15,000 bases of DNA from Salpingoeca rosetta (lineage: Eukaryota; Opisthokonta; Choanoflagellata; Craspedida; Salpingoecidae): positions 418,683-433,682 of the forward strand of contig NW_004754902.1 of assembly GCF_000188695.1 (NCBI RefSeq), given 5' to 3'. The translations under genes and the position numbers were made by a program. Positions 807-15,000 of this stretch are shown here, piece by piece (the first letter of the stretch is position 1; every line of letters begins with the position of its first letter). The notes under the pieces were generated by a model. The model was not told the DNA's origin, searched no databases, and saw only the letters and a program-made list of their open reading frames with translations.

Positions 807-3800
807 TCATGCGTGGTGAAGAATGAGGGAGTGCTGCCAGCATCTGAACGAGCACCATCGTGCCAGGGCGCGGCTCTTGGCAAACTCGCGTGCGTCCATC
901 TCTTCGTGATCATCGTCATCATCGCGACGCTGTGTCACATGTGGGACAATGAATGACAGACACTGTATGTTAGCGTAAGCTGCTGTGTCTGTGCATGTAT
1001 GTGTGTGCATTTGGTTGTGCCTGTGTGTCCATGTGTGTGTGTGTGAGAGCGAAGACTGTGAAAGCTCGTCAGCTCCATCCATCCAGCCATCCATCCATCC
1101 ATCCATCCATCCATCCATCCATATTACCTTGAAGAACATGACGTGCCCCTGCCGGTCACCGGCAACGAAACCCCCAGCAGCAGTCGGCACAATGCACCTG
1201 CAGCGAGATACGTGCGGTTGTGTGTGTGTGTGTGTGTGTGTGTGTGTGTGTGTGTGTGTGTGTGTGTGTGTGTGTGTGTGTGTGTGTGTGTGTGTGTGTG
1301 TGTGTGTGTGTGTGTGATTGAGTGGCGTACATGTGTGCAAACAAGGGTGTCAAATGCGTGCGTTGTCTTACACACACACACACGCAAATGCGCACACATG
1401 CAAATGTGCACAGATGCATCAACCCCGCTCTTTCCGCCCCCACCCCCAACCTGATTGTGTTGCCGTGGACGGCAATGCTGTTGAGTGTTGTGCCGTCACG
1501 TCGCCAGATCTTGATGCAGTGGTCCCATCCACCAGACAGGATCGTGTTGAACCTGACGAAAGCACCAAGGCAGAACACGGCCGTGTTGAAATGGTGTGTT
1601 ACATTACATTACATTACGCGTTTGTGGTGCACGAGCAGGGAGTAATGTTCCACACGAGGGGATGCATGGGGAGACGTCAGCACTTGCGCACTTGCGCACG
1701 TACAAACACACACACGCACACACACACGCACACACACACACACGCACGCACGCACGCACGCACGCACGCACGCACGCACATACACGCACACACCTTGCAT
1801 CGAATATGACGTCCAAGACGTCTCGTGTGTGCTGTCGATACACGACACCAGCACGGGCAACTACAACATAACCACCACCGCCACCACCGCCACCAACGCC
1901 ACCATCGCCCGGACTGCCCCTGCTGTCGCTGTCGTCGTCGGCGTCGTCGTGCGTGTATGTGAGGTGCCAGACACGACAGGTGCAGTCGCTGCTCGCTGTC
2001 ACGAGTGTTAGATCCGGCGAAACGCACAGCGCATTCACCTGAAGGGGTGTGATGTGGCAGGCAATGGTCGTGGAGGTGAGGTGGGAGATGAGTTGATGTT
2101 GAGAATGCATTGTGGTGGTATGTCGTCAGTTACCACACCAGCACATTACCACAACCAACCGCAGTCACAACACAACAACAACACCAGCAGCAACAACACC
2201 AGTCACAACAGCAACCATCACAACACAACAACAACAACAACCACCACCGCCACCGGCAGCAGTGCAAATCTGCGCCACCTGCTCCGTGTGCTGTTCGGCG
2301 AGCGTCTGGAACGACAGCACCACGGCCCTGTGTCGTCGCTTGCCCCGCCCCCCGCGAGAAGGCGGTGATTTGGATCGTGACGATGATAATGACGATGCTG
2401 GTGCTGGTGCTGAGCTTGGTGATGTTGACTTGTTTGTACCCCATGCACCCGTTGCTTGGTCCAGTGCTGCTGTGGATACCGTCTCGGGGATGGCTGGCAT
2501 GCCTCCTGGTGTTGCTGCCGACTGTGTCTTACCCGTCGACGACGCACCACCAAGACTCACGCTGCTGCTGCTTCGGCTGTAACCGCCACCACCGCCACCA
2601 ACACGATGACGAAGGCCAGTGCCATGGTCTTGAAGCACGCTGCCCACGCGGCACAGCCCAACACGGCCGCTCTTTGTTGCGCACACGATGTAATCCCCGT
2701 ACGGCAGCCAGCAACACCCGAGCACGTGGTCGACACGTGCCAGCGGATTTTCGGACCGTGATTCCTCCTCTGCAGCCATGCCACGCTGCTGCTGCCCTGC
2801 GTGTTGCTGCTGTTGCCGTTGTTGCCCTGCGTGCTGCCTGTCATCCTTCAATGGCATGAGGCATGCTGCCACGAGTGCGCCCGTGCGTGTGCACCAGAGC
2901 ATGCACGATCCGTCCGCCGACGGTGTCGCCACCGCGCGTCCGCTCGGCGACTCAACACCTACACGCCATGCCCGTTGACGAAGGTGGTAATATGGGGGCA
3001 TGTTTGGGGCGGGGGATGAGTGACGATGAGCAAGGCGGGGTGGTAGCGTGGATGTACTCGCGTTCACACGCACATGTGCACACACACACATGTGCACGCA
3101 CATGCACATGCACATGCACATGCACACACATGCACGCACACATGCACACACATGCACGCGCACATGCACACACACACACACGCACACGCACGTGTGCACA
3201 CCTGGGTTTGTGATGACCTGTGCGTGTCTACCGGCTGTCCATATGCGAGTTGCGTCGAGCGACCACTTCTCAATGGTGCCGTGGCCGCCACACGTGTACA
3301 CGGCCCGCCCGTCGAACGAGCGGGAGATGAACCTGGCAGCCATGGTGGTGGTGGTGGTGGTGGAATAGGTGTGGGTGGTGGTTGTGGAATGTGAATGGGT
3401 GATGTTGACGAGTCTTCGGCGGTGCACATGAGGGAGTGAAACGCCAAAAGCGCACACAATGACGCCGGGAAAGAGGGGTAAGATAGCCGTAGCCAAGGTG
3501 ACGGCTGTGACCCATGCCATGAAGCACCATGTGCTGTTGTTTCGTTGTGCTCTTACCGCGTTCCCTGCGTTTGCCCTTCAAACTTGCGCACAATCTGAGC
3601 ACAGTCGTGGGTCACAGAGGATATGAGAAGAGCGATTGCGTGAAGTTTTGTGTGTGTGTGTGTGTGTTTGTGTGTGTGCTTGTGAGTGTGTTCGTGTCAG
3701 CCATGGGTACACAGGTACATACACTGTCGCAACCAATGGAATCAATCGTACGTACAACACACGCACTCACACAACACTCACCCCCCCCCCCCCTCAACAC

Positions 3801-6800
3801 ACACAACACTCATTCACACAGACACATCATCAGCACGGTGCCACCTTGTGCTTGGTTGTGTCGATGAGGATGGCTGTTGATCCTTTGCCCGCGAGCAGCA
3901 TGTGGCGGTTTCCAGAAGACGTGAACGGGAGCGACACGCAGAAGAACTGAACGCAGTAGGAAAGGAACGCCGATGGAAGGAAGGCAGAAGCCATGGTGAT
4001 TCGAGGTGCACGACACCAAAGCTGGTTCAAGTGCAGCAATACACAAATAACTCAAACAAACAAATGCGCACACACGCACACGCACAAAAAAACATACAAA
4101 CAAACACACAAACAAACACACAAACACACACAAACAAACAAACGCGCACACAAAAACACACACACAAACACACACAAACAAACAAACAAACCAACAAACA
4201 ACAAACAAACAAACAAACAAACAAACAAACAAACAAACAAACAAACAAACAAACAAACAAACAAACAAACAAACAAACAAACAAACAAACAAGCAAGCAA
4301 GCAAACAAACAAACAAACAAACAAACAAACAAACGTGCAGTACCTGAAGGCAGGCGATGGTGTAGCCGACGTCTGTCCATGTGATGTTGCACGGCGGGAA
4401 CGGGCGCGTTGTGCCATGGCCGTCCACATATGTCAAGGCCTGTCCAGCCAATGCAGACCGTGACGAGGAGCCACCAGCGTTTCGTTCCCGCAATCCCACC
4501 AGATACCCGCCCACGCTCCTCTCCAGCTCGTCCAGGTCCGGCGAGCCGATGCGAAATGAAACGCATCTGGACTGGACGTCCACCACCAACGCGCACGACA
4601 GCTTGTTCTCGCGTTTCTTCTCGGACACATGTCCGTTGGAGCCAACAGCCAGCTGTGAGCCGTCTGCACAGAAGCAGAGCGACTGCAACCACGCACTGGC
4701 AACGCACATCGAATACTCCGCTTGGAGAGACATGAACCCGCCACAACCACCGCCACCACCGCTGGTGTTGTCATCGGTGTTGGCGTTGTCGTTATTGCTA
4801 GTGTCGTCGCTGCGTGGTGTATGGTCGCTCCTCGTTGGAAGCTGCACACGTCCTGCCGGTGCGCTCGTGTCCGCGAACATGTCCGCGAGCGTTGTGATTG
4901 GGGGCGATGTTGCTGTTTTGCTTGCAGGCAACGGCTCGCCCTCTGCGACCTGTTGTCCCTCACTCTCACCATCACCGGCGTCATGAGGGCCCTTGCCATT
5001 GCCACTGATGGAGAACATAAACAGCCGGCCCTGATCGTCGGAAACGGCGAGGCGATCCTTGTTCGTGTCAAACGCACACGCCAGCAGCGGCGAAGCGTGT
5101 CCGATGCATGCAAGCAACGCCCCTGTTCATGTTGAGGTGTGGTTGCGTGTGTGTGTGTGTGTGTGTGTGTGTGTGTGTGTGTGTGTGTGTGTGTGTGTGT
5201 GTGTGTGTGTGTGTGTGTGTGTGTGTGTGTGTCCGTAAGTAATCGTGTAGAGCGCCGATGTCACACACACACACGCACACACAAAACTATCGCACGTACA
5301 CACACACACACACAAAACCATCGTCGCATACAATACCCGTCTTGAGGCTGAGGAACTGGAGGTGTCCGCCCTCGAGTGTGCATGCAAGCACACCACATTT
5401 TGGGATTGCCGTCGCACACGCCACTCGCTCGTCGCCGACTGGAAATGCAGGGAAAAGAGACGAGGAGGAAGGAAGAGTGTGATGAGTCGCGAGTGGGGAG
5501 GATGTGGGGAAATTCGATACAGAAATGCCAAACGCGTGCACGCCATCACACAAACACAAACACGTACACATGCACAAGAACACGCACGCGCACACACACA
5601 ACACACATGCACAAGAACATGCACAAGAACACGCACACAGAAACACACGCTCTCTCCAACTCACAGCAGCGCGTCCACTCCTGGCTGAAGTAAACGGATG
5701 TTGGGTCCGGGGAAATGTGAAGGGAAATCAATTCCACACTCCTCACCCGACACAACAGCAGCTGCAGCGAAGTGTCACCGGCACTGCTGTTGTGTTTGGT
5801 GTTTGGTGATGATGGCGCCACAAAGGGTGTACACGTGTACATGCGAGCAGATGTGTGAGATGTGTGTGTTTGTGTGTAGGCGTGTGTGCATGTGTGTGCA
5901 TGTGTGTGCATGTGTGTGCATGTGTGTGCATGCGTGTGTTTGTGTGTTTGTGTGTTTGTATGGTTGTGTGTGTGTGTGTTTGTCTATGTGTGCGAGAAGC
6001 ATCGCCATGAGGGCGAAAGGCAAGAGCACACGGCTTGATGCACTCAGCCGCACTACCTGGATGACTTCAATGATGAAGATGATGATGGTGGTGGTGGTGG
6101 TGATGATGGTGATGGTGATACAATGACTGCCTCCATGATGCTCCGATCTTTGTCTCCGCTTCCGCGCGTGTGCTCGGCAATCAGTTCCCCCGATCGACGG
6201 TGCACACGCACACACCCGTCCTCCGCGGCGGACACAATCTGAACAGACGTTGTACAATGGAATGTGTACATGCACGTTTGTTTGTGTGCATGAGTTCGCG
6301 TCAAAGCGAAAACGTGTGCACATAGCAAACTTGCACTGAACAAGAAGGGCGTATGCCCACACCGGTCAGGGAATGACACAAATTGCCAAGTTGACTCACC
6401 ACTCTGTCGCGCGCTGCCCACGCAACAAATGAAACGCTGTCCGTGAACCCCTGTCTCAGACGTATTCATGATGGGTGTAAAACATTCGCGAGAAACGATG
6501 AGATGGCCAGGGCACTGGATGTTGGTGTTCAAATGCTTTGTAAGCACACGCGGGAGTATGTGCAGTCCTACACACACACACACACACATACACATATACG
6601 CACACAAACGCGTCTACACACACACACACACCACACACCACACACACACACACATCTACACACACATACACGTTTAAACACACACATACACACACAACGC
6701 GTCTTCACACAGAATAGCGGCACCTCGAGAATGGCTTCGCGTTCGCCGTCGTGCACGCGCATGATAACGACACAGCTATACTTTCGGTTGAAGCTGAACA

Positions 6801-14822: not shown

Positions 14823-15000
14823 CTAGTGGTCGGGGGAAGGAGGTGGTGACAAACAGGATGTGTTGAGATGTGTGATGCGAAGCGTCGACGAGCTGTTACA
14901 CGTGCACACAGATGCATGCACACTCGCACACGCACACACACAAACACCGCACACGCACACACACACACACACACACACACACACACACACACACACACAC
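14823..15000 (-). other. Acceptor half of an intron running off the right edge, with (CA)n at 14957-15000
   Basis: On the coding strand this ends in a pyrimidine-rich tract and ACTAG before the Walker A exon. The outer part is a TG tract in the sense direction (+ strand CA, 14905-15000), presumably donor-proximal to an exon beyond the window. I see no exon in it. Confidence 0.75.

Follow-up and report, generated by a model that had tools for sequence, protein, structure and literature searches.

In the choanoflagellate Salpingoeca rosetta, TG tracts lie mostly in the donor half of introns and CA tracts mostly in the acceptor half, a polarity that is real and widespread in the genome but statistical, not strict. 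We analysed a window of 15,000 nucleotides (nt), positions 418683-433682 of contig NW_004754902.1 in a genome of 54.4 Mb in 49 contigs. A preliminary description of its minus-strand gene had claimed that long tracts obey this polarity strictly, with none reversed, and that the two kinds of tract can pair into a UG:CA stem that brings the splice sites together. (The product of the gene has a P-loop, read from the open reading frame 14822-14673, and WD40 repeats; the database matches listed for it did not include its own annotated protein.) Among 297 introns called in the window and in other loci, tracts of at least 10 nt were distributed between donor and acceptor halves as 179:34 for TG and 43:96 for CA (Fisher p=5e-24). 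Counting by intron half had been proposed as a check of the claim, and the frequencies found, for called introns as opposed to RNA-seq-supported ones, are not equal. The supposition that the feature is gene-wide in a probable protist was correct, the host being S. rosetta and the bias being spread over its genome.

Introns were called with a purpose-written hidden Markov gene finder whose noncoding model is strand-symmetric and in which simple repeats were masked and given a fixed strand-neutral score, so that the tracts were not used for calling. Besides the window, the 182.7-kb input contained 26 unmasked pieces of at least 800 nt, taken from 21 of 25 sampled loci. A full donor matrix yielded the 297 introns, a donor model limited to the GT and the exon-side positions (GT-only) yielded 276, and the 200 introns that were identical in both form a consensus set. 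In addition, the Pik4ca protein of the S. rosetta annotation was aligned to its locus, gap-free over residues 543-1697, which placed 26 introns; the gene finder matched both boundaries in 19 of these, one boundary in 4 and none in 3. (According to the excerpted text of PMC4054682, the published S. rosetta gene set combines ab initio, homology and expressed sequence tag evidence and was improved by RNA-seq.)

The polarity was found however the introns were delimited. Leaving out the window gave 153:32 for TG and 39:83 for CA (p=3e-19), and the consensus introns outside it gave 109:20 and 29:63 (p=9e-16). Under the GT-only donor model the counts were 169:35 and 44:104, and for tracts of at least 20 nt in all called introns they were 40:6 and 12:36. 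When introns were divided into deciles, TG tracts peaked in deciles 2-3, with a median start 62 nt from the donor, and CA tracts in deciles 7-9. The TG-minus-CA dinucleotide content was higher in the donor half in 220 of the 288 introns longer than 60 nt (p=5e-26), and 23 of the 26 introns placed by the Pik4ca protein were polar (p=5e-6). At 30-60 nt, annotation-free counts of order across the genome gave 1545 cases of (TG)6 followed by (CA)6 vs 435 of the reverse; at 100-130 nt the numbers were 8771 and 1358. These are overlapping match positions, not loci, so that long tracts weigh more, in a genome of which some stretches are N. Note that these counts are equal on both strands, the pattern being its own reverse complement, and that the pairs are not located to introns. 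With both strands summed, TG preceded ACC in 2212 cases vs 438 in reverse, and GTTT preceded CA in 257 vs 23. (A GA/CT order control gave 17 vs 7, with matches so few and clustered that it says little.)

Within the window, 30 introns were called with the full donor model and 31 with the GT-only model. For tracts of at least 20 nt the donor:acceptor counts were 7:0 for TG and 0:7 for CA with both models; for tracts of at least 10 nt they were 26:2 and 4:13 with the full model and 25:3 and 2:15 with the GT-only model. The direction of the claimed polarity is upheld, and for the longest tracts of the window, those of at least 20 nt, none is indeed reversed; beyond these, strictness is rejected by exceptions inside and outside the window. 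The former include a pure (CA)7 on the donor side of the midpoint in intron 6121-5762 and the tracts 13647-13638, 3090-3079 and 1045-1032 close to an intron midpoint (relative position 0.45-0.54). Outside the window, reversed tracts of at least 10 nt made up 32 of 185 for TG and 39 of 122 for CA, and those of at least 20 nt 6 of 39 and 12 of 41; part of these is probably due to gene-model errors. Some details of the calls in the window bear on these numbers. The called introns 855-565 and 496-193 lie beyond the gene end, are probably false and contain no counted tracts; some exons were merged or missed (for example 6056-5356); intron 14699-14464 was not called; and 2 TG and 5 CA tracts (15000-14933, 14530-14185) lie upstream of the called introns, outside the tract counts. 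The preliminary description named some of its 29 introns; these and the tracts do exist, and 14699-14464, 5336-5123, 3844-3595 and 1450-1198 are each GT...AG.

The rule extends beyond dinucleotides, and more broadly than had been claimed. Repeats of other units leaned in the same manner (donor:acceptor half GTTT 6:0, GTT 9:4, GGT 2:0, ACC 2:14, AAC 2:6, ATC 0:4, ACTC 0:2), and mixed units such as AGC were balanced (2:2). Among 267 introns, 169 had a G/T-only run of at least 10 nt in the donor half and 77 had one in the acceptor half; for A/C-only runs the numbers were 56 and 123. Introns lacking any TG or CA run of at least 8 nt were polar too (68 of 103, p=1e-5), as were those lacking even a 6-nt run (33 of 49, p=0.004). 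In the 200 consensus introns the keto (G/T) fraction rose from 0.43-0.49 in the upstream exon to 0.60-0.68 in the intron's first 160 nt and was 0.39-0.40 from -20 to -80 relative to the acceptor; farther from the acceptor, from -80 to -180, it was 0.45-0.53, with 0.42 in the last, sparse bin. These zones persist when repeats are masked (0.57-0.65 on the donor side and 0.43-0.44 on the acceptor side). The mean keto difference between halves was highest in introns of 250-400 nt (0.23-0.25) and was 0.11 above 400 nt.

The acceptor side was also profiled for its local folding and its pyrimidine content. In the 153 consensus introns of at least 160 nt with flanks present, the local fold energy over 60 nt was weakest from -75 to -15 (-7.4 kcal/mol), compared with -13.9 in the donor zone, -10.8 in the middle and -15.1 and -16.5 in the flanking exons. 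In whole-intron ensembles, computed by partition function for the 149 consensus introns of 150-400 nt, the acceptor zone was slightly more open (0.486) than its counterpart in whole-intron shuffles (0.439, p=0.004). Pyrimidine enrichment from -12 to -5 was small (C 0.25-0.35, T 0.21-0.34). The statement that acceptors with CA tracts have little pyrimidine tract holds only weakly, the pyrimidine fraction being 0.56 at acceptors with a CA tract vs 0.59 at those without, and the T fraction 0.21 vs 0.28 (52 vs 245 introns). The 6-mers enriched before acceptors were mostly of ACC type, plus TCTCAC (22 vs 8), and the donor consensus resembles GTGYGT.

To the claim that the arms form a stem, single introns and the intron population give different answers: a stem is possible in the former, and as a feature for which the latter has been selected it is mostly not supported. 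In predicted folds of the four named introns, pairs across the midpoint numbered 45/85 (14699-14464), 57/61 (5336-5123), 65/88 (3844-3595) and 30/52 (1450-1198), and the distances from the donor to position -25 were 9 to 33 steps. When introns were scored for having both a TG tract in the 5' half and a CA tract in the 3' half, the odds ratios were 0.67-0.93 in the full set and 0.47-0.63 in the GT-only set, none significant by Fisher's test. For introns of at least 100 nt (267 of 297 in the full set, 252 of 276 in the GT-only set, 184 of 200 in the consensus set), a length-stratified test of G/T-only runs in the 5' half together with A/C-only runs in the 3' half, for runs of 10, 12 and 16 nt, respectively, gave observed vs expected numbers of 80 vs 82.5, 50 vs 56.3 and 19 vs 27.6 in the full set; 78 vs 78.7, 48 vs 54.1 and 19 vs 27.5 in the GT-only set; 61 vs 57.6, 37 vs 39.0 and 15 vs 18.0 in the consensus set; and 6 vs 6.4, 5 vs 4.9 and 1 vs 1.9 in Pik4ca. 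In 179 introns, the longest TG and the longest CA tract were not correlated in length (-0.09, p=0.25).

Neither stability nor compactness pointed to selection for a stem. In the 250 called introns of 100-450 nt the minimum free energy was -0.2663 kcal/nt for real introns, -0.2653 for half-wise shuffles and -0.2665 for whole shuffles, and chimeras of 5' and 3' halves from different introns were more stable than real introns (-0.2892 vs -0.2663 kcal/nt, p=1e-7). Because this deficit may reflect composition common to the two halves of an intron, the keto content of the 5' half and the amino (A/C) content of the 3' half being negatively correlated (-0.35, 179 introns), we do not take it to mean that pairing is avoided. 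The graph distance from donor to -25 was not shortened (28.6 in real introns vs 25.1, 24.9 and 25.8 in controls). The expected number of cross-half pairs per nt in the 149 introns was 0.1435, compared with 0.1019 in whole shuffles (p=8e-11), 0.1484 in half-wise shuffles and 0.155 and 0.160 in chimeras. Polarity thus steers pairing across the halves, the 3' half of another intron serves equally well, and the net structure is neither stabler nor more compact.

We favour, with moderate confidence, the reading that these are composition zones next to the splice sites with a role in intron recognition. The zones themselves, their strand-specific polarity, their spread over the genome, their presence in tract-free introns and the lack of excess co-occurrence of arms are observed; the mechanism behind them is a proposal from sequence computation. 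Under this proposal a keto-rich zone would extend from the donor roughly 160 nt into the intron, an amino-rich zone would lie at roughly -20 to -100 before the acceptor, and UG and CA microsatellites would be their extreme, slippage-expanded form, with GTTT, GTT, ACC, AAC and ATC repeats leaning likewise. The zones would be kept because they help splice-site recognition: CELF/Bruno-type proteins may bind UG-rich sequence after the donor, hnRNP L-type proteins may bind CA-rich sequence before the acceptor, and the A/C-rich zone may stay locally single-stranded around the branch site where the polypyrimidine tract is seemingly weak. Pairing between zones would be a generic by-product.

Candidate readers are encoded in the genome. 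CA repeats are binding sites for hnRNP L, and UG repeats for CELF; an hnRNP L relative lies at C15:631845-633752 (best PDB matches hnRNP L at 4.8e-28, with PTB next at 5.4e-21), a PTB relative at C2:170644-173645 (PTB 1.8e-44, hnRNP L 2.1e-12) and a CELF relative on C1 near 1395724 (2.4e-40). For the U2AF large-subunit family TIGR01642 no match in the genome exceeded the cut-off, which does not imply absence, as N stretches or intron-split exons may hide the gene; the best match to this family falls inside the CELF relative.

Several observations weigh against the favoured reading. Introns shorter than 150 nt, where the calls are least sure, are weakly polar (mean keto difference 0.03-0.05), and the tract counts of Pik4ca alone are weak (tracts of at least 10 nt: TG 20:6, CA 4:5, p=0.10). 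The acceptor zone is not more open than in half-wise shuffles (0.486 vs 0.478), and the donor zone is less open than in both kinds of shuffle (0.366 vs 0.438 whole and 0.400 half-wise). The excess of cross-half pairs over whole shuffles belongs here too, and because polarity steers pairing across the halves, a generic panhandle may be involved. Most introns come from the purpose-written gene finder, with its 19 of 26 exact matches to annotated Pik4ca, and the bias of TG-then-CA order could arise from some non-intronic inverted arrangement, since the order counts do not locate introns.

Among the alternatives, a neutral origin, in which splice signals (GTGYGT-type donors and a CA-rich acceptor side) together with position-dependent mutation or slippage yield the repeats without function, is rather less probable than a role in recognition. 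It draws on the likeness of the donor consensus to GTGYGT, on tracts such as 9069-8990 that begin at the donor and on how abundant dinucleotide tracts are genome-wide (on one strand (TG)10 matches at 196,945 overlapping positions); against it stand the median start of TG tracts well inside the intron, the breadth of the keto zone and the fact that other repeat units and tract-free introns obey the same rule. A plain bias of the transcribed strand fails, because both halves of an intron are transcribed in the same direction and such a bias cannot give them opposite composition. Slippage from one motif is likewise rejected as the whole cause, and the repeat-generating intron mechanism suggested in the preliminary description does not by itself account for the polarity that tract-free introns and unrelated repeat units show.

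That UG and CA arms pair, draw the splice sites together and lessen the need for U2AF2 appears unlikely, more so than a neutral origin. The placing of complementary zones at opposite ends of the intron, the folds of the four window introns, in which 30 to 65 pairs span the midpoint, and the cross-half pairing above whole shuffles all speak for it; the arms co-occur no more than expected, the energy equals that of shuffles and is weaker than that of chimeras, the donor is no closer to -25, and the keto and amino contents of the two halves are negatively correlated. The co-occurrence, chimera and distance tests led us to reject arm pairing as a selected feature for the main explanation. Far less probable still is an artefact in which splice-site calls were placed, on either strand, so that TG tracts fall near donors. 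TG repeats do look donor-like and most introns were called by our own gene finder, but the donor model without intron positions beyond the GT gave the same result, masked repeats were scored strand-neutrally against a strand-symmetric noncoding model, and both the annotation-free order counts and the introns placed by a published protein agree; a donor-scoring artefact is rejected on these grounds.

Polarized GT/AC intron repeats are known as a feature of fish and lamprey, where, in the work of Lin et al., AC and GT repeats reportedly co-occur in one intron, with GT-type repeats in the 5' part and AC-type in the 3' part, and form a bridging structure said to make U2AF2 dispensable. The excerpted text of a review describes complementary AC and GT repeats at opposite intron boundaries in these animals (Lin et al., Genome Res, doi 10.1101/gr.181008.114, as cited in review PMC7404189). 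S. rosetta shares the AC- and GT-rich tracts at opposite ends of introns, where the pattern is statistical, and differs in having no excess co-occurrence of the arms, which reportedly co-occur in fish and lamprey. Short AC and GT repeats are also said to have been predicted as intronic splicing enhancers in fish by Yeo et al. in 2004; both cases share an enrichment of such repeats close to splice sites and the proposal of RNA-binding proteins as readers, the enhancers being those of vertebrates and S. rosetta being a choanoflagellate. In human introns, as far as the excerpted text of PMC2481429 goes, intronic enhancers lie upstream of weak polypyrimidine tracts; motifs at about -80 to -30 that would compensate for a weak pyrimidine tract are a point of likeness. 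The S. rosetta tracts do not fit ordinary intronic microsatellites, which have no bias of orientation or position relative to splice sites (p=5e-24, and 3e-19 without the window). Searches of an open-access library showed no report of a G/T-to-A/C intron rule in S. rosetta, and neither "intron" nor any word that starts with it occurs in the main text of the paper on the S. rosetta genome.

The rule, G/T-only repeats after donors and A/C-only repeats before acceptors, is simple: any annotated genome can be searched for it, and it could aid the prediction of S. rosetta genes. That the pattern spans a choanoflagellate genome with no linkage between the arms separates the position of repeats from their pairing, and the question of position vs pairing is directly testable in this species, for which genome editing has been published (eLife 2020, PMC7314544, in its excerpted text). 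A more far-reaching idea, which we regard as doubtful, is that introns in this close unicellular relative of animals are largely defined by a keto-to-amino code (a UG zone after the donor and a CA zone before the acceptor, with CELF- and hnRNP L-type readers) that replaces a strong polypyrimidine tract, the fish GT/AC repeats being a remnant or a re-invention of pre-animal intron recognition.

Repeat tracts and two-arm introns of the window (window positions; tract and intron coordinates in the last column are given in the sense direction)
Feature	Position	Strand	Context
Intron with both arms	1198..1450	-	(TG)7 1383-1370 in donor half; (CA)49 1316-1219 in acceptor half
Intron with both arms	5123..5336	-	TG tracts 5314-5298 and 5274-5262; (CA)43 5232-5147
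Intron with both arms	3595..3844	-	Imperfect TG-rich donor half; CA tracts 3678-3649 in acceptor half
Intron with both arms	14464..14699	-	Imperfect TG-rich donor half; CA tracts 14530-14482 in acceptor half; GT...AG boundaries of the preliminary description
(GT)40	8990..9069	-	Begins at donor of intron 9069-8873
(GT)39	9453..9530	-	At donor of intron called as 9528-9191
(TG)26	10978..11029	-	Donor half of intron ending at 10792
(GT)13 and (GT)27	10169..10258	-	Donor half of intron 10306-10008
(GT)17	7809..7842	-	Begins at donor of intron 7842-7641
(GTTT)n, G/T-only repeat of another unit	4190..4332	-	Follows donor of intron 4343-3947
(CA)40	8018..8097	-	Acceptor half of intron 8187-8000
CA tracts	8545..8649	-	Acceptor half of intron 8784-8527
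CA tracts	12115..12165	-	Acceptor half of intron 12258-12100
CA tracts	13832..13897	-	Acceptor half of intron 13999-13812
(CACT)n-type array	6897..7000	-	Acceptor half of intron 7151-6794
Pure (CA)7, exception	5966..5979	-	Donor half of intron 6121-5762 of the preliminary description, relative position 0.41

Three further features of the window are recorded here. The (CACT)n-type array spells CTCAC over and over, a sequence similar to a branch-site motif (the branch-site consensus is yUnAy), and TCTCAC is among the 6-mers enriched before acceptors; arrays of branch-site-like motifs are possible. The 300-nt stretches 8992-9291 and 9453-9752 are 100% identical and 461 nt apart, an exon being present as a tandem copy together with part of its flanking introns and a (GT)n tract; the copy stems either from duplication in the very recent past or from misassembly at the microsatellite. 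Positions 2-148 of the plus strand encode the C-terminal end of a histone H3, convergent with the WD40 gene and, in this part, without an intron.

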